The position numbers and the translations under genes are program-made. DNA of 26,573 nucleotides from IMG/VR virus record IMGVR_UViG_3300044638_001362, positions 1-26,573 of that record; one strand, 5' to 3'. How positions within the stretch are numbered: the first letter of the stretch is position 1; every line of letters starts with the position of its first letter. Positions 1,378 through 25,843 of the stretch are shown piece after piece. The notes under the pieces were generated by a model. The model ran no database searches and had not been told where the DNA came from. It saw only the letters and a list, made by a program, of their open reading frames with translations. Source of the stretch: a virus.

Positions 1378-1569
1378 TTACTTAGTGCGTCCAAATTCTG
1401 GAGCAGACTTGTCTAAAGCCTTCAAAATAGGACCTACTAGACCAGCAATAAATGCTGCAGACAATACCTTTGGGTCACGTTGACCTGCTGTGTATAGGGC
1501 TACTGCTGATGCTGCTGCTGCACGTAGGTAAGACAATGCAATTTGTTTTGCTTTTTCTTTATCAAACAT
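1378..1569 (-). CDS. Small hydrophobic holin-like protein
   Basis: 63 residues beginning MFDKEKAKQIALSYLRAAAA. Two hydrophobic stretches (about residues 13-28 and 37-51, the latter AAFIAGLVGPILKAL) could form one or two membrane segments, with a charged N-terminus and the tail DKSAPEFGRTK. A small membrane protein directly after an endolysin gene is typical of actinophage lysis cassettes, so a holin, anti-holin or holin-modulating role is likely. The upstream leader AAGGAGAACAAATG is a strong SD. It is the last gene of the late operon, next to the terminator. No biochemical motif beyond hydrophobicity is visible. Confidence 0.65.
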   Translation of the reverse strand: MFDKEKAKQIALSYLRAAAASAVALYTAGQRDPKVLSAAFIAGLVGPILKALDKSAPEFGRTK

Positions 1570-1578
1570 TTGTTCTCC

Positions 1579-2316
1579 TTAAAGGAACTTAATTAATTCA
1601 GCCCAAGTTTTTGGACCTATGATTCCGTTAGAATCAATATTACCGTGATTGTCTTGGAACTTAATCACAGATGCTTTGGTCTTAGGACCATAGATTCCAT
1701 CGGCTTCTAAAGCAAGGGCTTGTTGAACTATCTTAACACCATTGCTTTTATCTCCAGGTTTAATTGTTCCTGGAAATTCTGGAGCATTTGATACTGGCAC
1801 TTTAGCATTAACTTCATTGCCTTTGTAGTTAGGTCTGCCAAAACCTACGATAGATACCATAACTTTATTTTTATTTTTGGTATAACCACGAGTCTTAACT
1901 GCTACCTCACCACCATTACGCTGGTCTCCTTTAGGATTACCAGCAGTATTACCTTCGATACAGACCACAGTTCCATCGTTATTGTTTTCAACTACAATAC
2001 CAACGTGGGAAATACGGTCTACGTTATCTCCAGGAAAATCAAAGAATGCTATATCACCAGGTAGAGGTTTAGCATCCTTAGCATCGGTCCAAGTATTCAT
2101 CTTCTTATAAGCATTTGCACCTGCAACTGTTGATACACAGTTAGGTACTTTAACCCCTGCTTGGTTGGCACACCACATAACGAATGAGCCACACCAAGGC
2201 AGGAAGTTTGCCTTAGTAAAAGCACCATACTTGGTTTCATTATCTTTAGGACCTTCAATAGTCCCTACTTCTTTCTTAGCAATCTCAATGATTGCGGCAA
2301 CTGTTCCCTTTGTCAT
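1579..2316 (-). CDS. Endolysin: CHAP amidase/endopeptidase plus peptidoglycan-binding domain
   Basis: 245 residues in two domains. Residues 5-160 form a CHAP (NlpC/P60-like) fold: the catalytic Cys is C42 in LPWCGSFVMWC, the His is H104 in RISHVGIVVE, and the third polar residue probably lies in CIEGN (E121/N123). CHAP enzymes cut peptidoglycan cross-bridges or the MurNAc-Ala bond. A linker rich in Pro follows (about 165-190). Residues 190-245 are a PG_binding_1 repeat (GDKSNGVKIVQQAL, DGIYGPKTKASVIKFQ, GIIGPKTWAEL). No signal peptide is seen, so export depends on the neighbouring holins. The start overlaps the holin stop (TAATG at 2314-2318). This is the phage's cell-wall hydrolase for lysis of a Gram-positive host. 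Confidence 0.92.
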   Translation of the reverse strand: MTKGTVAAIIEIAKKEVGTIEGPKDNETKYGAFTKANFLPWCGSFVMWCANQAGVKVPNCVSTVAGANAYKKMNTWTDAKDAKPLPGDIAFFDFPGDNVDRISHVGIVVENNNDGTVVCIEGNTAGNPKGDQRNGGEVAVKTRGYTKNKNKVMVSIVGFGRPNYKGNEVNAKVPVSNAPEFPGTIKPGDKSNGVKIVQQALALEADGIYGPKTKASVIKFQDNHGNIDSNGIIGPKTWAELIKFL

Positions 2317-2627
2317 TAGTTGTAGTTAGGGTCAATCTTATTTGACTTATCAGTAGCCTGACGATTCTCTACCTCTACATCTGCTACTGTCTTAGCACCC
2401 TTGTCTACTGCAGAGAAGGCTGCATTAATTTCATCAAGAGATAGTTTGCCATCATCCATAAATGCACGGGCTAACTTCTCTACTACTGCTGCTACTGCGG
2501 TAAGACCAGCAACAGTTACTGCTGTAATAGTATCAACACCAGCGATAGCACCAGCACCAATTACAGATAGACCTGATGCTGCAAATACAGCAACGATACG
2601 CATTAATACATTTTTAAGTGAGGCCAT
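2316..2627 (-). CDS. Holin (r1t-like, two membrane segments)
   Basis: 103 residues. The N-terminus [20 protein letters not shown] starts a first hydrophobic segment (about 8-30) and a second spans about 33-53 (TAVTVAGLTAVAAVVEKLA). A Gly/Ala-rich turn (GAGAIAGVD) separates them, and a charged cytoplasmic tail follows, beginning ARAFMDDGKLSLDEINAAF. This matches the layout of r1t-type holins common in actinophages and lactococcal phages. Holins open lesions in the inner membrane at a set time so the endolysin can reach the wall. The gene directly precedes the endolysin, with TAATG overlaps at both ends. Confidence 0.82.
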   Translation of the reverse strand: MASLKNVLMRIVAVFAASGLSVIGAGAIAGVDTITAVTVAGLTAVAAVVEKLARAFMDDGKLSLDEINAAFSAVDKGAKTVADVEVENRQATDKSNKIDPNYN

Positions 2628-2800
2628 TATTCATCATCCTTTGGGTTACGTAAGTTGAAAGTTATACCCCATACAACTAGGGATAAAACAATTGCATAAC
2701 CAACTACAGTTTTGGCTGAACCTTCTAGCACTACCCAAGCAATAAACATGCCTAGTAATGTCCATAGTTGATTAAAGATATCTGAGAACCAACGCTTCAT
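2627..2800 (-). CDS. Small two-segment membrane protein of the lysis cassette
   Basis: 57 residues starting [13 protein letters not shown]. Two hydrophobic segments are predicted by eye: [13 protein letters not shown] (about 15-27) and [17 protein letters not shown] (about 32-48), with a basic N-terminus and an acidic C-terminus (RNPKDDE). It overlaps the stop of the upstream P/E-stalk gene as ATGA and the holin start as TAATG, so it is translationally locked into the lysis operon. It is likely a second holin, anti-holin or accessory lysis protein; the sequence alone cannot say which. Confidence 0.75.
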
Positions 2801-4032
2801 GGTTTCCTCCTATAAGCGGATACAGCAGCAGCGGTTGCTGTTGCTTGGGTTGCAATATTTCCTGCTATGACTGCTGCGACAATAACCTTTTCAGATTCTT
2901 CTCGCACTTCTTCAGTCATGTCCGCCCCTACAGAACCAAGTGCAGCCAAGGCTGCTGCTGGGTTAGTAAATATTTCTTGTAGCATTGCTGCTGGGTCTTG
3001 CAATAGTTGAATTGCTATTGCAGTTTCTGCCGTTACTACTACGCCATTAGATAATTCAACTGGCGTGTCAGGTTCTAATAGTTCTAAATCTGTCTCTTCT
3101 GCCTGTACAATTGGTTCTTCAGTTTCTTCTACAGGAGGTTCAGGTTGAATAGGTTCTGGCTCAGGCTCAGTTTCTACTGGGACAGGCTCAAGTTCTGGCT
3201 CTGGTTCAGGCTCTGGAGTAGGTAATGGTTGAGGCTCTGGTTCTAATACTGGTTCCTCTGGTATCTCTGGCTCTGGGTTATACACTGGGGGTATCACAGG
3301 CTCAGGATATGGTTGTGGAATCACAATTGGAGTTGGCTCAGGTTGAACTGGAGTTGGCTCAGGTTCTACAGGAGAAGGAACAGGCTCAGGCTCAACGGGC
3401 AAAGGCTCTGGCGTGGGATTTACAGGTTCGGGTTCCAAAACAGGAGCCTCTTCAACCTGAATAATATTTGCTTGTTCTAAAGGAACAACTGTTCCATCAG
3501 TTAAGCGTGCACCTGTGCGCTCACCACCATACAAAGGACCATTAACTGCATAGGTATATGCAACGGTTCCACCTGTTTGGATTTGAGCAGTAATAACAAT
3601 ACTGGTTACTTCACCACTCATACTTCCATACGGACGGTATGCACCATCTACTTGGAATCCACCATCACTAACATTAATAATGAAGTGAGTATCTGGCATA
3701 CGGTCAGGCAAAGCCCACCAGTCACGGGACTCAATTGATATAGATGGAGTTAATGGATAGTTCCAATACGTACCATCTGGGCTACCAAAGGTAATGACTG
3801 AGTTAGTTGTAGCGTATACATTCTGATATGTAACACCATCATAAACAACTGATACTGTCAGTGGTATCTGATAGGAAACATCATCTCCACCTTGAGTAAC
3901 AACAGTGGTAACTGCTGGTGCAGAATCCTCTGCCCTTGCTGCAACTGGAAATAAAAATAAAGAATTAAAAACTATAAAACAAATTACTAAACTATTTCTT
4001 GCCTTTAGAAATAAGTGTGTAAATCTGGTCAA
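2797..4032 (-). CDS. Secreted protein with Pro/Glu-repeat stalk, in the lysis cassette
   Basis: 411 residues. A signal peptide is clear: basic N-terminus, hydrophobic [16 protein letters not shown], and an AARA-ED cleavage site near residue 34. Residues 35-190 form a beta-rich Tyr/Gly domain ([41 protein letters not shown]) of no family I recognise. Residues about 195-315 are a Pro/Glu repeat ([19 protein letters not shown]), an extended stiff stalk. The C-terminus (320-411) is Ala-rich with a hydrophobic helix [21 protein letters not shown] and a basic end AYRRKP, which could anchor it in the membrane. The only usable start is TTG at 4032, inside the preceding holin-like gene. It may act at the wall during lysis, in surface modification, or in superinfection exclusion; all are inference. 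Confidence 0.8.
3085..3450 (-). repeat. Pro/Glu codon repeat encoding the stalk
   Basis: On the + strand the motif GGCTCAGG/GGTTCTGG recurs with minor variation, encoding irregular PEPEP, PVEPEP and PTPEP units on the - strand. The repeats are degenerate at DNA level, so they are better seen as protein low complexity than as a true tandem array. They could still support length variation by slippage. Confidence 0.75.
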
Positions 4033-4198
4033 CTCGGGTTTCCAATCGGGTAATGCGTCCCTCTAAGTTGTGTCCCCCGTTGCCGTCAGGTTTAAGTTCT
4101 GACAGGTAGTGCTTTACTAGCCACCTAATTGATGCTACGAAACTTCCTATAATAGTTGCAACTGATACCGCAATACCAGCCCAGTCAGTAGGCGTCAT
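3992..4198 (-). CDS. Single-pass membrane protein, holin-like
   Basis: 68 residues. After MTPTDW comes one hydrophobic segment (about 8-28, [21 protein letters not shown]), then [20 protein letters not shown] and a short amphipathic helix [20 protein letters not shown] that could form a coiled coil. The LKPxGxGGxxLxxRxxRLExRVDxIY pattern recurs in small membrane proteins near actinophage lysins. It is probably an accessory holin or membrane-anchored lysis factor. It follows the large tail gene by a few bases and its 3' end overlaps the start of the secreted P/E protein by 41 bases, in a different frame. Confidence 0.7.
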
Positions 4199-4202
4199 GT
4201 CA

Positions 4203-6395
4203 TTATACCGTCCTAATAGTTACCTCAATTATCCCACCGAATCCATCAAACCTTCTGTCTGGTGGAGTCATGCGAGTAAATGAGATTTGCTCGATAATTA
4301 TCTGACGAGTTTCGCCAGTAGTTAGGTCTTGCCAAGTAACGACATCGCCATTTTCTTCTATGCTTTCTAGCAGTTGTAATCTATGTAGTGCTGAACCTTC
4401 ATAGCCAGACACTACGTTGTATCTATCTGTTTCTATATCAAAGCAATAAATAGGAAACTTCAAGGCTCTCTGTCTAGGTGTAGCAATAGTAGCCTTTGCT
4501 TGATAGCCCTTGAATATAGGACCAGTTGATGTAGTAGTTGAGTCACGAGCAAATGTAAACTTATATGCTACATATTCTTGTGCGGATTCAGGTTGAGATG
4601 TAGTCACCTCAACTGCAGTTACCCCTGCCTCATATGTAATATGGTCATAAGGAGTATTGCTTTTATCTACGGTTGCTAAGGTTAATGAACCTTTAGTAAA
4701 ATCACCACGAGCAAGGAGACGTTTAAAGTTCTTTGGTTCTAGTGTGCCATAGCGGATATAACCTGTAGTTATATATCCAGTTGACATTAAGGTAGAGGCT
4801 GCCTCAATATATGAGTAGCCAGGTTTACCAACAAGCCCAGTAGTTACTGCGGTAGATGCAATAGTTCCTGATGTGGTAGTTGCATATGTAATTGTATTCG
4901 TAGTTACTGAGGTAATAGTAAAGTCACCATCTAGGGCTGCATCTACACCTATGACATAGATTTTATCGCCAGCCACATAGCCGTGGGCAGCAGATGTAAT
5001 AGTTGCTGCAGTTCCAGTACGTACTTTATTGGTTACTGACTTCTGGTCAACTGCTTCTGTGCAGAATGCTAACCTGTTGGTTTCTCCAAGAAATGCACAA
5101 GATGTAGTATCTACGCCAGTTACACCTGCATAGTAAATATCATTAGCATAAGCAAACCGTAGGGTTTCAATCTCATTACCTAGGTCAATACGAACAACCC
5201 CAGGCTCACCACCCACACTAGTTGCACACCAAACAAATCTATCCCGTGCAGCAAAGTCATAGCAAGGTTGAGTTGTTTCTACAATTAGTGGACCATAACT
5301 TATAGAACCATCTTGGTCAGATACAGTTGCTGCTCTAATACCCTTGTTAGTTCCTATCATCATATAACCTAGATAGTAATAAATCTTATGTATCTTCTCG
5401 CCAACTGGCATCTCTGCTGCGGTAATGGCTGTAGTAAGGGTAGGCATAACACCTGATGTATTGAGAGTAAACTTAAATATAGATGATTGAATACCACTAT
5501 ACCCAGCAATATAGATAGCAGGGCCAGAGGCTGTGATAGATGTAAATATTATATCGTCATCTGAATGGGTATATAAAGCAGTAGGTGCAGAAGATTGTGA
5601 TGTAGGAAATTCATATATCCTATTATTGGCAGCCATAACAATACGGTCTTTAACATATTCCATAGCGGCATTAGTTACTGTAAAACCATTAACAGTAAAC
5701 ATTGGAGTTGCTGTAGTAGCATAATCTCCAGTTAATACTTTTTTATTTACTTCTAATTTTCCAGATGGACCAGTATCATTAGTTACCCAATAGGCGGTAG
5801 TACCATCATCACAAATAGCATAGACCTTGTCATCTGCGCCAGCGTTATAATCAATGAAGTGGGTTTCTACTCCAGCAGTATCAATCTTATCTACGTCATA
5901 CCCATCATGTAGCAATACTCCGTCAGTTGTACCCCATTTAATAGAGCGCAATTGCTGAAATGAGCGACCATTAGATTCAACTGGGTATGTAGTTACGTGT
6001 CCAGTAGCAACATCTTTAAGCAGAGTTGCCTGTCCCTTAGTCCAAACATCTACACCTTTGCTATCTGTAAATCTATGGGCTACTACTTCGCCAGCAGATG
6101 GGTCATAGAATCTAATACCAGTACCATTATGAAAAGATGATTGGCTTCTTAGCCACCAGCCTGTAAGTGATTGCTCACCTGGCTCTTGGTTATTATCAAA
6201 TTGTTCTTTACGGTATGGCGCAGTCTGTCTAATGTATGGCCGTGCATCACTGATAGCATAGAAGAATGGTTGTCCACCTATGGCTACATCATACGAATCG
6301 CCTGAATTTTGCCATGTTGAAGATGATGCCAGGATACCAATATCAACAGCAATAGCACGTTCAGCACGACCTTCGGTTATATCACGACCAGCCAC
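4203..6395 (-). CDS. Large tail protein, beta-propeller-like (tail hub/nozzle candidate)
   Basis: 730 residues, start GTG with SD AAGGAG five bases upstream (the ATG alternatives lack this). The N-terminus (MAGRDITEGRAERAIAVDIG, then QPFFYAISDARPYIRQTAPYRKEQFD) is followed from about 60 to 430 by repeated beta units (DGVLLHDGYDVDKI, VYAICDDGTTAYWVTN, AIYIAGYSGIQSS, MMIGTNKGIRAATV, RFVWCATSVGG), each pairing a Tyr/Ile strand with a Gly turn, as in beta-propellers. Residues about 450-527 are a small inserted beta domain (SAAHGYVAGDKIYVIG). The C-terminus ends FDGFGGIIEVTIRTV. Propeller-bearing tail tube or nozzle proteins occur in T7-like podoviruses (gp12-type) and as minor tail proteins in siphoviruses. 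It lies between the glycosyltransferase and the lysis genes. Exact role is inference. Confidence 0.65.
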   Translation of the reverse strand: MAGRDITEGRAERAIAVDIGILASSSTWQNSGDSYDVAIGGQPFFYAISDARPYIRQTAPYRKEQFDNNQEPGEQSLTGWWLRSQSSFHNGTGIRFYDPSAGEVVAHRFTDSKGVDVWTKGQATLLKDVATGHVTTYPVESNGRSFQQLRSIKWGTTDGVLLHDGYDVDKIDTAGVETHFIDYNAGADDKVYAICDDGTTAYWVTNDTGPSGKLEVNKKVLTGDYATTATPMFTVNGFTVTNAAMEYVKDRIVMAANNRIYEFPTSQSSAPTALYTHSDDDIIFTSITASGPAIYIAGYSGIQSSIFKFTLNTSGVMPTLTTAITAAEMPVGEKIHKIYYYLGYMMIGTNKGIRAATVSDQDGSISYGPLIVETTQPCYDFAARDRFVWCATSVGGEPGVVRIDLGNEIETLRFAYANDIYYAGVTGVDTTSCAFLGETNRLAFCTEAVDQKSVTNKVRTGTAATITSAAHGYVAGDKIYVIGVDAALDGDFTITSVTTNTITYATTTSGTIASTAVTTGLVGKPGYSYIEAASTLMSTGYITTGYIRYGTLEPKNFKRLLARGDFTKGSLTLATVDKSNTPYDHITYEAGVTAVEVTTSQPESAQEYVAYKFTFARDSTTTSTGPIFKGYQAKATIATPRQRALKFPIYCFDIETDRYNVVSGYEGSALHRLQLLESIEENGDVVTWQDLTTGETRQIIIEQISFTRMTPPDRRFDGFGGIIEVTIRTV

Positions 6396-10161: not shown

Positions 10162-11733
10162 TTAGTATGCGCCCATTATATTCATAATGGTATTATTGTT
10201 TTCAGTTTCGGATGTTGCATATGACGATAAATCTACTTGAGACCATTCTAAACCACTTGTTGTTGCCGAGTTAGTTTTTAGAAAATATCCATTTGTTCCA
10301 ACACCTAACATGGTATAGGTATCATTTGCGCTACCTACAAACAAATCACCCTTTGCATTAATGTCAGTTTTATTAACGGCATTAGCAGCATTGGATTGTT
10401 GAGCATAATACTTAGCCGAAAATTCAGAACCATCTACCGTTCCAGTAGTTTTAGTTGCCCAATCCTGAGCAAGGGTTGCAGAGGTAGCAGCACTAGTTGC
10501 ACTAGTGGCTGCAGATGTAGCAGATGTAGCAGCGCTAGATGCAGATGTTGCAGCAGCACTTGCTGAAGTAGCAGCCGAAGATGCAGAAACAGCAGCAGCA
10601 GATGTAGAAGCAGCAGCCGATGCTGCTGAGGTACTTGCTGAGTTAGCACTAGTTAAGGCTGAAGATGCTGAGGTACTAGCAGATGATGCCGAAGTTTCAG
10701 CACTTGTGGCTGAGGTAGCAGCAGCACTAGCACTTGTTGCAGAACTAGTTGCGCTGGTCGCAGCAGCGGTAGCAGAGGCAGCAGCAGATGTGGCTGAGGT
10801 TGCTGCAGCAGTCTGGCTTGTAAGGGCACTAGAGGCGCTTGTAGAGGCTGCTGTGGCGCTATTAGCAGCAGAGGTAGCACTAGTCGCTGCAGCGGTTGCA
10901 CTTGCTGCTGCACTAGTAGCAGAGGTGGCTGCGGCTGTAGCACTGGCTGCGGCTGATGTAGCCGAAGTAGATGCTGCAGTTGCAGAGCCTAAAATGCTAT
11001 CTACATAATCTTTTGGAGCAGCATCACTAGATGCGCTTGGAGTTCCAAGTCCAGTAATGGTTGGGCTGCCTGAAATTGTAGGGCTAGTTAAAGTCTTGTT
11101 AGTTAATGTTTGAGGTGCATCTAAAATTGTAACAGTACCTGATGTGTTAGGTAGAGTAATTGTTCTATCTGCAGTTGGGTCCGCTACCGTTAATGTAGTT
11201 TCAAAAGCATCTGCAGTAGCACCTTCAAATACAATAGAGGTAAACTCTGCACCAGCACCAGCAGTAATTGTTGGGCTAGTAATAATAGGAGATGTTAAAG
11301 TTTTGTTTGTAAGGGTTTGACTCTTGCCCGTACCTACTACATCACCCTCATCCGAAGCAATACCATGCAGAGCATGGGTACTAGTTCCATCATTGTAAGC
11401 AGCCGATGCTTCAATGTGTAGGTTGGCTTCACGGTAGTCACGGCCAATTGCCATGTGACGAATAAAGGCACCAGCAGAGTGAATCTGCCCAACACCAGAA
11501 ACTTCTACACCACGAGCAATAGTTAACGTATCGCCGTTAACTGCGGTTACATCTACAATTTCTTCAACGGCTGTATCTGGGTCAATTACTACTGTAAATC
11601 TTTCGCTTCCACTTATTGTTGCTCCACCTAGTAGTTGTGAAGCGGAACCAACTACCATGCTGGTAACACCAGCAGTAATGGTTGATGTTAATGTAGTCTG
11701 TTGCGAACGGGATGAGTATTTGCGTGTGGTCAT
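10162..11733 (-). CDS. Tail fibre with Ala/Ser/Thr repeat shaft
   Basis: 523 residues. The N-terminal domain (about 1-110) has beta strands ERFTVVIDPDTAVEEIVDV, TLTIARGVEVSG, and IRHMAIGRDYREANLHIE, a layout seen in head-proximal parts of phage fibres. Two copies of QTLTNKTLTSP (about 138 and 207) flank a short beta region, a motif frequent in phage fibres. Residues about 250-425 are a long ASA/TSA repeat (SAAASATAAATSA) like the coiled-coil or triple-stranded shaft of lambda Stf. The C-terminus carries QDWATKTTGTVDGSEFSAKYYAQ and ends NTIMNIMGAY. It probably forms the long trimeric side fibre. The shaft gives spurious ORFs in other frames, which are not genes. Confidence 0.85.
   Translation of the reverse strand: MTTRKYSSRSQQTTLTSTITAGVTSMVVGSASQLLGGATISGSERFTVVIDPDTAVEEIVDVTAVNGDTLTIARGVEVSGVGQIHSAGAFIRHMAIGRDYREANLHIEASAAYNDGTSTHALHGIASDEGDVVGTGKSQTLTNKTLTSPIITSPTITAGAGAEFTSIVFEGATADAFETTLTVADPTADRTITLPNTSGTVTILDAPQTLTNKTLTSPTISGSPTITGLGTPSASSDAAPKDYVDSILGSATAASTSATSAAASATAAATSATSAAASATAAATSATSAANSATAASTSASSALTSQTAAATSATSAAASATAAATSATSSATSASAAATSATSAETSASSASTSASSALTSANSASTSAASAAASTSAAAVSASSAATSASAAATSASSAATSATSAATSATSAATSATLAQDWATKTTGTVDGSEFSAKYYAQQSNAANAVNKTDINAKGDLFVGSANDTYTMLGVGTNGYFLKTNSATTSGLEWSQVDLSSYATSETENNNTIMNIMGAY
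10455..10985 (-). repeat. Ala/Ser/Thr codon repeat of the fibre shaft
   Basis: GCAGCA/GTAGCA-type trinucleotide units recur for about 530 bases and encode SATSAAAS-like heptad-compatible repeats. Codon choice varies between copies, which argues for selection on the protein rather than recent DNA expansion, though recombination between copies remains possible. Confidence 0.8.
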
Positions 11734-19119: not shown

Positions 19120-22100
19120 TTATCTATCCTCAATTCCTGCTATAAGTGATTCTCTAGAATAAAAATTAAGCAACCCAGTAAATATAATTCTATTTGCTTC
19201 TTTTACTATTGGATTTGTTTTACCGAGTTCTGTTAATATACTAACGACTTGTTCTTTCTTGCTTGATTTCATGCTACTAAAATCCCAACGCATACCCATT
19301 GCTGGGTCTTCTGCAAAGGTAAGAAACTCTGATACATTTTTAATAGCAAGGTTCATGGCTGACCTTGTTTGTAGGTCAATAGGAGACTTAGGTTCGGCTA
19401 CTGCTTCAGATAGGGCTTTAAACATTTTCTTTAAATCTCCACGATTAGTTCCTTTTCCACTAATCTCAGCATCAAGATATGGATTAGATACTAAAAGAGC
19501 AGTACGTTCCTGTGCGGCCTTGTCAATTAATTGACGTCTGGTTATATAGCCAGGCTCTTTCTTTAGTGCTTCATTAAGGTTATCTTCAATAGCAAAGTAC
19601 TTTTGTTTATCCTCTGCTACCTGAACATTCTCTAGATAGTCTTCAAATTCTGGAATATCTACTAGTCCCTCAGATTGCATCCAAGCATATATATCTGGAT
19701 TGTATTCTCCAGCCTTAGGTGCAAATAGATATCCTATTTCTTTATAAGTATCAATAAACTTCTTATTTTTAATTGACCAATTTTTAACTTCATCAGTAGT
19801 ATTAATAAGAACTTTAAACTCTTTGGTATTGCGTGGCACCAGATATATTACCTTGCCTGGGTTTTGTCCAACCCATGTAGCAATGGCTAAATCAAATACA
19901 TCTGTATCTTCATTTTCAGCATTACGTAGTAGGCCATTGTATACATCGTAGAAAGATGACTTCCAGGTAGTGATACCAGTTTTCTTCATGAACCCTGGTA
20001 AGTCTTTAGAGTCCTTTAATGTTGGCTGTCCTGGAGATATCTGTCCAAGCATGTTACGTGCAACTATAACGCTGTTTGTTGAAATTTTTAACTTAGAAAT
20101 ATAATCTGCTTTTTCTTGAGTTGTTGCATTTGTTGGTAGTCCATTACCAAATGCTTGGGCATAAGCAATAGCCTGCAACATTGCAGTTCCTTTTTGCCTA
20201 TCCCATTCGGTAGGAGATAGAGTACCAAATATAGTGTCAGCAAACATTGGCACTAAAGCGCTTCTCAATGTCATTCTATCGCCAAATTGACCAAGTGCTA
20301 TTGAGTCAAACTTTTCTGCAAATTGAGTAGTTGAAGGCTGTATCTGTTCCTTAATTGGAGCAGGAACAAATGGCAACTCTCTTAAAATCGCTCTAAAAAA
20401 TACAACTCCAACAGAACCAATTGGTCCAGCCAAGGCTGGTTGTCCTGCATCAGGTGAGAAAGATGGGTTAAGTAATCTTAACTTAAGAGTAAACTCATTA
20501 AATGATGGAATATTAATTGTTGAGTTACCAGTTAAGGTTCTAAGTACTGGTTCAACTGCACCATTAATAATTGAATCAGTTGGGAAGATAATGAACTTAT
20601 CGCCCTTTTCATCTTCGTAAACATCTCCAGATGCTTCAAGACCTGTATGTAGCAGGCGAAGACGATATAAACTTTGCAAAGGTTTCTTGGTGTATAAACG
20701 CCATACACGTCTGTAGAAATCCTCAGTTGCTCTATAGAATCTACCTACTGAACGAATAGAGATAGCAAAATTAGTTCTAACCGATGGATTATCTACATAC
20801 TCTAACAGTTCTTCAGTGGCACGTGTAAGTGCTAGATTAGTAACTTGTCTTTCAGCATGTTCTTTTCCACGGGCTTCAGCAATACCCTTGCTAAGTAGTG
20901 GATTTTCTTCAATTGCATTTCTAACATATCGGTCTTTAAATACTTTTTCGTATGGCTTTAAATCTTTAAGCGCTCTCTCTGTAAATAACAGCAACATAGG
21001 CTGACGATAGATACCAGTTACGGTTGCATCCATAACATCCATTGTCCAGTTTTGCCATTTAGAATAAAGGTGGTTAAATCCAGCCTCTTCTTCAAATATC
21101 TTCATATCTTTTTCTGGACCAAGATTATATAAACGTGTTTGTAGATTTGTTCCTGGTTGATACCCTTGAGTCAGGTCTTCAAATCTAGTAAAATCTATTT
21201 CAGCAGAGGCTTTACTCCATGCATCTTTTACAGTTTCGCTAACTCTTGGTATTATATTAATACGTGATTTATTGCCTGTATGATAAACAATATATTCAGC
21301 ATTAATTTTATTTAATAAATCAATAAATTGACTGTCAACATTTGGCATATCACCTACAATAAATCTAGCACCTGCTGCATTTGCATCGGTAATACTTTTA
21401 ATAGTTTCTGGACGTAGTTCTTTACCTGCTAATTTACCATTTCTTGCAAGCATAATTGTTTTACCAGACAAATTAGATGTTGCTGGTCCAAGTCTTAATA
21501 AACTTGTCTCGCTTGAAGTTTTACCAATACCTTCTGGATTTGCTTTTGTTATATTTTTTTGAGTATTTACATCAACAAGTTCAACTATTGCGGCATCTGA
21601 TTCTGAGCGCATAGCAATATCTTTTGCATCGCCAAGTGGTGTTCCCTTGCCCGCATTGCCACCAGCAATTGCCTTAAGGTTTACTTGTGGTCCACTTGCA
21701 TTTGTTTCGATTGTTGATTTTGCCGCTTTAACTGCTTCAAATAATTTTTCATTGTAGTTAGTTGGACCACCATGGAAAGTATTTCGCATATCCATTAGCA
21801 TATTTTCTACGTGGATACGGGCAATCTGCACATCTGGAATACCACGTTGGCGGTATAACACAGTTGTGCTAAACAAAGATAAGAATCCGTCTAACTTTGT
21901 TCCACTTGCAACAATGTAATCATCGTTAAAACCTTTTGGAACTCTCTCGACACCCACATCTTTAAGAATACTGTGGCGTGCATTGATAAAATCATCATTA
22001 GTCTTTAATGCTTTGTATCTATAGAAAGCATTTACTGGATTTACTACCGCACCATTGGCAATTTTTTCGCTGTTATAGGAAAAACGGATATTCCAGTTAT

Positions 22101-24831
22101 CAAAATGTGCAAGAGCAATTTGCTTTGTTGTCATTTTGTTAATATCTATAGCACGATATTTTTTACCTAGAGCAAGTCCTGCTTCTTTAATTGCTTTAGT
22201 TAAATTACTGCTAACAAAAACTGAATCTACATACTCAATGTCAATCTTTCCAGTCATCATACTGCGAGCAGCAACTGAATTACCCATTGAGTCTAGAACA
22301 TTTGGGCTATATTTCATTAAACGGGTTATAGTATCCATAGTTGCTGGTCCCATTTTGCCAGCATATAGGTCTTGAACTCGTAATAAAGTTTCTTCTCTAA
22401 TTGCTTGATGCGCTACATCAGCAAGAGCAACCTCATACCCATATTGTTTTGATAACTTGGCACGGGTATCTTCTAAAATATTTAAACGTTCTTGATTATC
22501 CAACTTCTGAGTTGGGTCCTTTGATGGAAATATTTTGTAAAACCCACGCTTGTACATACCCTGAGTTGTTTTAGACCCAGTAGTAGCCTCAAGTGTTGAA
22601 CGACCTGCACGACCACCAAATACAAATGAGCGCAATGCAGCAGTGCTTTGTGTAAGAAAACCAAAGAATGCTTCATCAACGCTGCTTCGTATTCCAAGAC
22701 GTGGGAAAAGAGTATTGTTTGTCCAGAAATCTGTATAAAATTTTGTAAACTTATTTCTTGTGGCTCCGCCAATAAGATGAATAGACCAGAATTTTTCAGA
22801 TAATCTTGAACTTGCTGCTGTTTGGTAAATTAAATCATATGGTAGCGGGGCAATACTTCTAGCAACCTGTGATGGTTGAACAATTCCCTTGGATGCTTGA
22901 AAGAAATCTTCGCCTTCACGTCTAACCAATGCTGGGTGTAATGTTCCAACTAGGTCAAGTGGTATCTGGGACTTTACTGTCGAGAACATACCAGTTTCAT
23001 TAAAGGTTGCAGCAAGGATTTCATCTGCAACTGTCTGTCCCTTAGGTGAACCAAGCATTCCACTTCTCATCATAACCGCTGCGTATAGGTTACGAATCAT
23101 CGTAAGTTGTATCTCTGGACTCTCGCTTAAGAATTGCTCTGTAAATGCATAGGCAGTATCTTTTTTACCCAAAGCAAGCATTGCTAAATTTCTAACATCT
23201 GACTCTGTTTTAATTGCATCTTCACCATACAGGATACGGCCAGGGCTGCGAGTAAGTCCAACTGACATTTTCTTCATCATCTTACGTGTTTTAGAAATGT
23301 CTGTTTGTAATTCAATAATATCTTTAATCGCTGGGTTAACTAAATTCTCACCATCATCAGCAACCTTTTTTAACACATCTAAAACTGTTGATAAATCTTT
23401 CTCACCCTTTTCTAGGTAAGACTGTACATTTAAATTCTTAGGGTTAGGATTAAAGATAGCATCAATAACTTTATGGGATGCAGAGGTAAGACTTCTAAAA
23501 TTTCTTGCTACGGGAATTCCATTCCTGCGGAAATTAAGATTATCTACACGGCCAGATAATAACAATCCCATATCTTCATGGTCTGTGAAAAATCTTTTTG
23601 CAGAGGCTGCATCAAAGACTTCTTCTTTTGCTAATTTTTTAACAACTTCAAGGTTAGCCCAGTCTGGAAAGTCAATACGTATTTGCTTATACACAAGTCC
23701 CTTGGCAACTGGACCTTCTGCATCTGCATAGTTCTTAACTACTTTACCTAGTTGCTCATCCCATAACTTAATAACATCGGCTTGTTTAAAAACAAAATCT
23801 ACGCCACCCTCGATGTTGCCACGCTCAGATAAGAAAACAAATTGGTCGGCAAGTTTTTCACCACGACTTTTAATTCCACCAAAACGAAGAACTGCCTCTG
23901 GAATACCAGCAACACCTCTACCAATAGCACGAGCACCTTTAATTATTGGACCAACACCAGTGTATGTAAGTGGGTCAATACCTAATTGATATGTAGCATC
24001 TACAGGACCAGATACTAAACTAGCAACTCCAGTACGTGTTTTTTTATCAGTTAAATCAATACCAACTTTTTTAAGTAATTTAGTTGCCCAATAACTTTGA
24101 TTAACTTCTGGGTCGGCTTTTAACATACTGCCAACTTTATCTCTACCTGGAGAAACCTGAGCAAAAGTTTTGATTTCTTTTAACAACTCATTAAACTGTT
24201 CAGGCTCATCGCCCATGAACTGAATTGCCTTAACCATACTTTCATCTGCTGTTCCATAAAGGTCAATTGACTCTCCAGGAGTTCTACCTTCAGTTACGCC
24301 ACGAATTAAAGTTACTAATGCTTTACCATGCTTGGCTTCATACTCAGAAATTTTATCCCATCTCCAAGAATTTTTTCCATCAAATGCTTCAGTGATAAGT
24401 TTTTTACTAAATCTTGAACCCATACGTTGTTCGGCTTGTTGTTCAACTTGGTATGGAGTATTTAAAGTTTTATAGTATTTGTCCGCTGCTGTAAATCCAG
24501 CAATAATTGGGCTGAATAAAACTTTAGCAGTAACACTACCAGCGCCAACAACAGCCTGTATTCCTCTACCAAGTGGGCTTAACTCAGGAGCAAATCGTTT
24601 TTCTTTAGAATAAAGATATCTAATATTATCTTGAACTATTGGGTCAAACTCAAGAAACTCTTTACGTCCGCTTTCCTCACTAAGTTGTAATAATCTTTTT
24701 GCTTCTTTTCTAGCATAGGACATTTGGTTAAGTGTCGTTTGTTGAGAAGGGGGTAGGCCAGCCTCTATCGCTGCCTTATAAATGTTAGGGCTTAGTTCAC
24801 CTACAACAGGGTCTAATTTTATTTCAGCCAT
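19120..24831 (-). CDS. Giant structural protein (1903 aa), putative ejection protein with SLOG-like segment
   Basis: 1903 residues, about 21% of the window. The N-terminus (SPLGRGIQAVVGAGSVTAKV, FSPIIAGFTAADKYY near 87-120) is mildly hydrophobic. Most of the rest is long helices, for example around SYLEKGEKDLSTVLDVLKKV and LERHAERQ-like charged stretches near 1310-1330. Residues about 1045-1195 differ: GKGTPLGDAKDIAMRSESDA, GKTIMLARNGKLAG, and RFIVGDMPNVDSQFIDLL with INAEYIVYHTG, which reads like a Rossmann-type SLOG/YspA nucleotide-binding domain (GDxPxVDxxF, YHTG). No transglycosylase or RNA polymerase motif is evident. Its size and position after portal and protease fit a giant ejected core protein of podoviruses. 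The start overlaps the upstream stop as TAATG. Confidence 0.7.
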   Translation of the reverse strand: MAEIKLDPVVGELSPNIYKAAIEAGLPPSQQTTLNQMSYARKEAKRLLQLSEESGRKEFLEFDPIVQDNIRYLYSKEKRFAPELSPLGRGIQAVVGAGSVTAKVLFSPIIAGFTAADKYYKTLNTPYQVEQQAEQRMGSRFSKKLITEAFDGKNSWRWDKISEYEAKHGKALVTLIRGVTEGRTPGESIDLYGTADESMVKAIQFMGDEPEQFNELLKEIKTFAQVSPGRDKVGSMLKADPEVNQSYWATKLLKKVGIDLTDKKTRTGVASLVSGPVDATYQLGIDPLTYTGVGPIIKGARAIGRGVAGIPEAVLRFGGIKSRGEKLADQFVFLSERGNIEGGVDFVFKQADVIKLWDEQLGKVVKNYADAEGPVAKGLVYKQIRIDFPDWANLEVVKKLAKEEVFDAASAKRFFTDHEDMGLLLSGRVDNLNFRRNGIPVARNFRSLTSASHKVIDAIFNPNPKNLNVQSYLEKGEKDLSTVLDVLKKVADDGENLVNPAIKDIIELQTDISKTRKMMKKMSVGLTRSPGRILYGEDAIKTESDVRNLAMLALGKKDTAYAFTEQFLSESPEIQLTMIRNLYAAVMMRSGMLGSPKGQTVADEILAATFNETGMFSTVKSQIPLDLVGTLHPALVRREGEDFFQASKGIVQPSQVARSIAPLPYDLIYQTAASSRLSEKFWSIHLIGGATRNKFTKFYTDFWTNNTLFPRLGIRSSVDEAFFGFLTQSTAALRSFVFGGRAGRSTLEATTGSKTTQGMYKRGFYKIFPSKDPTQKLDNQERLNILEDTRAKLSKQYGYEVALADVAHQAIREETLLRVQDLYAGKMGPATMDTITRLMKYSPNVLDSMGNSVAARSMMTGKIDIEYVDSVFVSSNLTKAIKEAGLALGKKYRAIDINKMTTKQIALAHFDNWNIRFSYNSEKIANGAVVNPVNAFYRYKALKTNDDFINARHSILKDVGVERVPKGFNDDYIVASGTKLDGFLSLFSTTVLYRQRGIPDVQIARIHVENMLMDMRNTFHGGPTNYNEKLFEAVKAAKSTIETNASGPQVNLKAIAGGNAGKGTPLGDAKDIAMRSESDAAIVELVDVNTQKNITKANPEGIGKTSSETSLLRLGPATSNLSGKTIMLARNGKLAGKELRPETIKSITDANAAGARFIVGDMPNVDSQFIDLLNKINAEYIVYHTGNKSRINIIPRVSETVKDAWSKASAEIDFTRFEDLTQGYQPGTNLQTRLYNLGPEKDMKIFEEEAGFNHLYSKWQNWTMDVMDATVTGIYRQPMLLLFTERALKDLKPYEKVFKDRYVRNAIEENPLLSKGIAEARGKEHAERQVTNLALTRATEELLEYVDNPSVRTNFAISIRSVGRFYRATEDFYRRVWRLYTKKPLQSLYRLRLLHTGLEASGDVYEDEKGDKFIIFPTDSIINGAVEPVLRTLTGNSTINIPSFNEFTLKLRLLNPSFSPDAGQPALAGPIGSVGVVFFRAILRELPFVPAPIKEQIQPSTTQFAEKFDSIALGQFGDRMTLRSALVPMFADTIFGTLSPTEWDRQKGTAMLQAIAYAQAFGNGLPTNATTQEKADYISKLKISTNSVIVARNMLGQISPGQPTLKDSKDLPGFMKKTGITTWKSSFYDVYNGLLRNAENEDTDVFDLAIATWVGQNPGKVIYLVPRNTKEFKVLINTTDEVKNWSIKNKKFIDTYKEIGYLFAPKAGEYNPDIYAWMQSEGLVDIPEFEDYLENVQVAEDKQKYFAIEDNLNEALKKEPGYITRRQLIDKAAQERTALLVSNPYLDAEISGKGTNRGDLKKMFKALSEAVAEPKSPIDLQTRSAMNLAIKNVSEFLTFAEDPAMGMRWDFSSMKSSKKEQVVSILTELGKTNPIVKEANRIIFTGLLNFYSRESLIAGIEDR

Positions 24832-25258: not shown

Positions 25259-25828
25259 CTACTTAGTAAATTGTGTTTTAACATTTGCAGTACCACCGCA
25301 CCACAGGTTATATTGAATTGCTATATTGATTGCTTTCTTTGCTGCACCAGATGCTTTAGCGTGAGTTTTAGTTTCAGATTCTAATGCTGCCAATGCACCA
25401 AGGGCTAAGGTTCCACCAGAACCTATTGCATATAAACCTTTGTCATCTCGCATATATCCATAGTCATCGCTAACTTGATATATTCTTCCATTAAAACAAA
25501 CTAATGCATCCCAACCAGAATCATCATCGTTCTTTGTTTTAGGTGCTGGGTCGTATCCACCATCTGTTATGGTTTGTTTCATAGATGGTAATACTCTAAT
25601 CATCATAAATCTATCTGGGTCTTGAGTCTTAATTACTTTAGGTGGTTGCCATAAGTTATTAAGAATATCTCCCACAATTGCATCACCTGCAACTGCAATT
25701 AGATACTCACCAATCTTAACTACCTTGTCATACCCCTTGGCTATGTAAGGTCTATCTTGATATGAAGTTACAGTATCTGCGGCTAGAACGGCCCAGCCTT
25801 TACCTTGTATTCCAACTATTGCTGTCAT
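25259..25828 (-). CDS. HslV / proteasome beta-like Ntn-hydrolase (probable protease)
   Basis: 189 residues from the second of two adjacent ATGs (25828; the first is 25831). From this start the protein reads Met-Thr-Ala-Ile, so removal of Met exposes Thr as the N-terminal nucleophile, as in HslV (which starts MTTIVSV). The family residues follow in order: the AVLAAD aspartate sits 16 residues after the Thr (equivalent to D17), KVVKI supplies the K33-like lysine, AVAGDAIVGD is the Gly turn, and LYAIGSGGTLALGALAAL matches HslV's LIAIGSGGxxAxAAAxAL. No propeptide or HslU ATPase gene is seen. Encoded right after the portal, the usual place of a prohead protease, it could mature the capsid or degrade host/phage proteins. 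Activity is inferred. Confidence 0.85.
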   Translation of the reverse strand: MTAIVGIQGKGWAVLAADTVTSYQDRPYIAKGYDKVVKIGEYLIAVAGDAIVGDILNNLWQPPKVIKTQDPDRFMMIRVLPSMKQTITDGGYDPAPKTKNDDDSGWDALVCFNGRIYQVSDDYGYMRDDKGLYAIGSGGTLALGALAALESETKTHAKASGAAKKAINIAIQYNLWCGGTANVKTQFTK

Positions 25829-25843
25829 CATCCCCCACTTAAG

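Follow-up and report, generated by a model that had tools for sequence, protein, structure and literature searches.

Llp of phage T5 is a phage superinfection-exclusion protein of the cell envelope. We know of no such protein in which a stalk across the wall carries exchangeable tips and a membrane protein is its obligate partner, the arrangement proposed below for a gene pair in a phage. Other phage-encoded proteins come close in single respects. T4 Spackle, compared here by its description only, is likewise exported and changes the envelope of the infected cell, but it is described as inhibiting the tail lysozyme in the periplasm (PMC7677548). The antiholin RI of T4 is exported too, has a cleavable signal peptide, pairs with a membrane protein that takes part in lysis, the holin T, and is thought to sense superinfection (PMC8385771); unlike the stalk protein, it is released into the periplasm and has no anchor, stalk or exchangeable tip. 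LysZ of the corynephages CL31 and Cog, again compared by description only, is a membrane protein from an actinophage lysis region for which an action on outer layers of the wall has been proposed. As described in PMC13056207, LysZ has one transmembrane segment, and neither stalk nor tip is mentioned; a relation to it was set aside. The small transmembrane lysis genes vary widely between actinophages (PMC13056207), so that position among lysis genes is weak evidence by itself.

The stalk gene lies in a 26,573-nucleotide stretch, hereafter the window, which is positions 1 to 26,573 of the IMG/VR record IMGVR_UViG_3300044638_001362. It belongs to an operon-like run on the minus strand that reads tail protein, 68-aa transmembrane protein, stalk protein, 57-aa partner, 103-aa protein, endolysin and 63-aa protein (Table 1), the 63-aa membrane gene behind the lysin being a further member of the cassette. 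The window also carries WhiB and the end of a sigma factor, both marks of an actinophage. Three further features are listed in Table 1 as observations in their own right. The family of the HslV/proteasome-like protease is also found close to the lysin in several larger relatives, a 1903-aa frame amid the head genes has no PHROG match at E 0.1, and the antisense frame is probably not a gene.

Table 1. Features of the window and of the stalk gene
Feature	Position	Strand	Basis or remark
63-aa small membrane protein	1378..1569	(-)	phrog_37724; holin-like by appearance only
Endolysin, CHAP + PG_binding_1	1579..2316	(-)	Domain matches
103-aa holin-like gene	2316..2627	(-)	Weak match to holin phrog_443
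57-aa partner (tm57), probable membrane hairpin	2627..2800	(-)	Core [27 protein letters not shown]; start overlaps stalk-gene stop by 4 nt
Stalk protein gene, 411 aa, TTG start	2797..4032	(-)	Stop codon 2797-2799
Conserved C-module, residues 309-411, with a small helical domain, an Ala-rich putative membrane helix (about 383-406) and the tail RRKP	2800..3108	(-)	Alignment, model, hydropathy
Pro/Glu-rich stalk, about residues 198-308 (111 aa), hypervariable, mosaic	3109..3441	(-)	Sequence, family comparison
Exposed tip domain, residues 35-197, all-beta, putative distant nidogen-like (NIDO) relative	3442..3930	(-)	Model and hhalign
Signal peptide, residues 1-34, AxA cleavage site (ARA|ED)	3931..4032	(-)	[27 protein letters not shown]; sequence and family statistics with control
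68-aa TM + coiled-coil gene, lysis region	3992..4198	(-)	41-nt overlap with stalk gene; also in phages E7 and F5
Tail protein	4203-6395	(-)	Just upstream of the lysis-region genes
Long Ala/Val-rich antisense ORF	10505-11008	(+)	Opposite 10162-11733 (-), mirroring the tail-fibre Ala/Ser/Thr repeat region
1903-aa ORF	19120-24831	(-)	Amid head genes
HslV/proteasome-like protease	25259-25831	(-)	phrog_1040, PF00227; adjoins portal C-terminus

An earlier note, made from the letters of the window, had described a TTG-started gene between two holin-like genes that encodes a signal peptide, a beta-rich domain, a P/E stalk of about 120 residues and a hydrophobic Ala-rich C-terminal helix. The gene is real, and its first three parts were borne out. 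Using our own scoring of signal peptides (h-region KD of at least 2, positive n-region and AxA), all three criteria were satisfied by 115 of 153 long family members, whereas identical scoring of 262 further proteins of these contigs, tail proteins and lysins among them, gave none. The tip is predicted to be all-beta with a pLDDT of 94, and the stalk came to 111 residues. The C-terminal helix stood only in part: the model of the C-module (pLDDT 86.5) contains a 36-residue helix at 374–409 with RRKP beside it, but its hydrophobicity is marginal (best 19-residue KD 1.54). The position between two holin-like genes was loosely put; the neighbours are small membrane proteins, but neither the 68-aa nor the 57-aa protein matches a holin family, the latter having been compared with Pfam, PHROGs and NCBIfam. 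The sortase wall-anchoring signal LPXTG was looked for in the stalk protein and is absent, and anchoring of the sortase type was set aside.

The layout of the gene is kept by hundreds of homologues, and dN is lower than dS in every part of it, the stalk included, when compared with four relatives; it is thus not a product of chance. Of 156 family frames, 86 have TTG, 43 GTG and 12 ATG as the start closest to the signal peptide, and this start frequently falls within the upstream gene, which suggests a low, coupled translation.

IMG/VR viral contigs gave at least 342 relatives for the C-module, at least 573 for the 57-aa protein and at least 177 for the window tip, whereas a tblastn search of 50,697 phage records gave none. 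No family in Pfam, PHROG or NCBIfam covers the stalk protein or the 57-aa protein. The window tip has no NIDO hit, nor any meaningful hit, in Pfam. It was aligned by hhalign with three bacterial NIDO-like domains with a probability of 93.7 and an E of 2e-7, over only 53 of 163 columns. Comparison with solved structures gave no confident fold (best VIA, Z 4.8, level with unrelated rows). A structure-library match from an uncultured phage, 68% identical in the tip, has been named automatically as ‘TerB_like domain containing protein’, a label that says nothing of function.

Careful inspection of the gene order revealed a strict association of the C-module with the 57-aa gene. There are 178 non-redundant loci of the latter, 173 of them with upstream sequence, and at 172 of these the C-module lies directly in front; the lone exception, L152, has a nuclease-like 136-aa frame between the two genes. 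The stalk gene and the 57-aa gene are an obligate pair, and they stay together even where the lysin and the holin-like genes are kilobases away (L137 and L141). Most pairs are found close to lysis genes: of the 90 that are flanked by 3 kb each way, 84 lie within about 3 kb of a lysin or of the 103-aa gene, while in some phages the lysin is up to 6 kb from the pair. The 57-aa partner has two membrane helices but neither a signal peptide nor a lipobox. It does not resemble the outer-membrane lipoprotein, with lipobox, of a two-component spanin of the Rz/Rz1 type, and the cleavage site of the stalk protein is AxA, with no Cys at the cut.

Such an arrangement could be a sensor of lysis timing, in which the tip would detect a superinfecting phage or cell contact and signal through the anchor helix to the 57-aa protein acting as holin or antiholin, in the manner of T4 RI and T. 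The place of the pair amid small membrane genes adjoining the lysin, its obligate link to a two-helix membrane protein and the precedent of RI speak for a sensor. We nevertheless regard it as unlikely, given that the 57-aa protein has no holin-family match, that the lysin is kilobases away from some phage pairs and that the bacterial pairs described below have no lysin nearby.

The exposed parts of the stalk protein differ strongly between relatives. Several unrelated classes of tip were found, including the window type, a short Cys-containing type, PA14 and SUEL lectin. The PA14 and SUEL lectin tips score above Pfam cut-offs, as exemplified by the SUEL lectin of L225 (E 9e-11), and the tip of L044 is fibronectin-like as guessed by eye. 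The DNA of L018 and L019 is 97% identical through the signal-peptide region, 39–64% in the tip and 97–100% in stalk, C-module and partner, a clean domain swap of the tip. The stalks are exchanged as well. Compared with the window, L001 and L005 have the signal peptide and tip at 98–99% identity and the partner, the 103-aa gene and the lysin at 99–100%, with the C-module at 90–91% and the stalk at about 50%; L006 is an apparent mosaic of both stalk types. The family stalk consists of 27% P, 17% E, 11% T and 10% V, and in L039, L044 and L167 a charged alpha-helical repeat takes its place, with the C-module kept. That exposed tips and stalks are swapped fast while the chassis stays fixed suggests an interaction subject to diversifying selection.

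The lectin-like and PA14 tips would also fit an adhesin of the infected cell, gluing it to other cells or particles and so helping the progeny to find hosts, and the window tip likewise heads a bacterial surface protein with Ig repeats (see below). As the benefit would hinge on cell contact in dilute plankton, we consider an adhesin quite unlikely.

The hosts are not known to possess an outer membrane. This counts against a spanin-like or LysZ-like factor that would breach the outer layers of the wall as the final step of lysis. The earlier note had offered a bridge across the wall during lysis, like a Gram-positive analogue of spanins, as one of two possibilities. Support comes from the wall-spanning stalk with its anchor, from the position in the lysis cassette and from LysZ itself, which is proposed to be a spanin-like one-TM protein of corynephages (PMC13056207). 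The related isolates point the other way. The tail gene of the window is 63% identical to that of the Planktophila phages E7 and F5, which were the first to be isolated on Nanopelagicales and lyse their host (PMC10202952). Their cassette consists of tail gene, 68-aa gene, lysin and 63-aa gene; it has no 103-aa gene, and tblastn gave no match to either member of the pair. The 167-aa gene at their lysin position has no Pfam hit and was read as a putative M15-type peptidase from its motif SDHNTGFAVD...HKHLHIS. More distant Streptomyces phages carry different small genes in this region. Since E7 and F5 lyse without it, the pair appears to be accessory and not a necessary part of lysis, at least in these relatives. 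Together with tips that vary between unrelated binding domains, lysins up to 6 kb away and homologues in bacterial chromosomes without lysis genes, this makes a spanin-like or LysZ-like role improbable, and the earlier note is not supported in this point.

Searches with the C-module also revealed surface proteins in three bacterial genomes of small-genome actinobacteria (G607, G645 and G697). All three have a full-length C-module protein and a 57-aa homologue with E < 1e-20, out of 251 genomes searched. In G645 and G607 the start of the homologue overlaps the surface gene that precedes it. In G697 a truncated C-module remnant (L254:8537-9122 (-)) stands before the homologue, and a full-length 710-aa copy is located at 4061-6193. 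The chromosomal pairs (L255, L256 and L254 in G645, G607 and G697) resemble the phage pair in having a signal peptide, a stalk, a homologous C-module and a 57-aa homologue; they differ in a longer C-module, in their tips and in not lying beside lysis genes. Their stalks are of S/T/P or Ala/Lys helical type and the C-module ends in IGNDxSPxTRKKAKK.... In the 10–13 kb read around each pair the neighbours are galE-, glycosyltransferase-, trpD- and cytochrome-like genes, with no visible phage genes and neither lysin nor other lysis genes. The bacterial 57-aa copies read WTFVGLF in place of WTLLGM, and a strict scan of the genome collection for the WTLLGM pattern was a false negative. On the phage contig L125 a phage tip is joined to a bacterial-type C-module and partner, and in a tree of the 57-aa protein the three bacterial copies group with L125 (support 94/86, from 54 columns only). 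The module thus appears to have moved between phages and bacteria. Its presence in a few bacterial chromosomes makes the pair look like a borrowed cell-surface system and not a lysis tool.

In a freshwater Microbacteriaceae MAG a window-type tip stands at the head of a 1718-aa secreted protein (L240:5755-10911) that continues with nine He_PIG Ig-repeat stretches, an Ala-rich helix, a Gly/Ser linker and a polytopic membrane C-terminus; its neighbours are housekeeping genes named by eye (ABC-F, msrA, oxidoreductase and dehydrogenase), and a similar protein is present in G173. Although the tip domain is present in Microbacteriaceae, the 57-aa gene gave no match in 199 of their genomes. The Ala-rich helix and Gly/Ser linker of the L240 protein resemble, by appearance only, the C-terminal end of larger phage versions.

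A structural protein of the virion, e.g. an adsorption fibre, is suggested by the tail gene just upstream and by tips akin to adhesion modules. We hold it to be very improbable: a signal peptide is unexpected in virion proteins, which are assembled in the cytoplasm, and none was seen in the tail genes of these contigs, homologues exist in bacterial chromosomes, and the pair is missing from relatives in which the tail gene is retained. The earlier note had named homologues outside lysis cassettes with a structural virion role as a ground against its own reading; those outside do exist, but they are bacterial surface proteins and not virion parts.

We propose that the pair is a two-gene display module that alters the surface of the infected cell, most likely against re-adsorption or superinfection, and give this explanation as a whole a probability of about 0.45. 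Its parts differ in strength. Display at the surface by the stalk protein and its partner is highly probable, in keeping with the wall-spanning surface protein of the earlier note, whereas a role of the pair in adsorption, which would agree with the block of superinfection that the note gave as its other possibility, is a tentative proposal. The computation gives the layout of the stalk protein, the pairing, the exchange of tips and stalks, the homologues in bacteria and the absence of the pair from related lysing isolates; beyond these we infer the topology in the cell, the interaction of both proteins, late expression and the adsorption role as follows. The stalk protein would be exported via its signal peptide, with the weakly hydrophobic C-terminal helix held in the membrane, the RRKP tail inside and the anchor helix probably packed against the 57-aa hairpin protein. 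The obligate linkage and the marginal hydrophobicity of the anchor suggest that this hairpin helps in anchorage. The P/E stalk would cross the wall and hold an interchangeable binding or adhesion domain outside; by our own estimate 111 residues could span some 30–35 nm if fully extended, enough for a Gram-positive wall. Made from the lysis region, the module is probably late. The changed surface of the infected cell or its debris would then keep sister phages and released progeny from adsorbing. The fast exchange of tips, their likeness to binding domains (PA14 and SUEL lectin in relatives, a putative distant nidogen-like relative in the window) and the homology to bacterial surface proteins argue for an interaction with the outside world, of which adsorption control is the most likely kind, and aggregation or sensing less likely ones.

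Some observations stand against display with an adsorption role. The 84 of 90 pairs near lysis genes may leave a role in lysis or its timing, and the anchor helix is only marginally hydrophobic. Furthermore, most classical genes for superinfection exclusion are expressed early or belong to prophages, whereas the stalk gene sits among presumably late ones.

The pair is present in hundreds of public viral contigs of phages related to isolates on Nanopelagicales, which are among the commonest freshwater bacteria, yet it has neither a name nor a protein-family model. It may represent, and this we put forward as a speculation, a chassis of C-module and 57-aa partner with plug-in lectin-like tips that is common to phages and actinobacteria. 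The phage would use it to redecorate the infected cell with a host-like receptor or adhesin, in an arms race like that of tail fibres but on the side of the cell. The module would then be a cell-surface display system that moves between bacteria and phages and, if adsorption control is true, a handle on the competition of phages inside and around the same cell.
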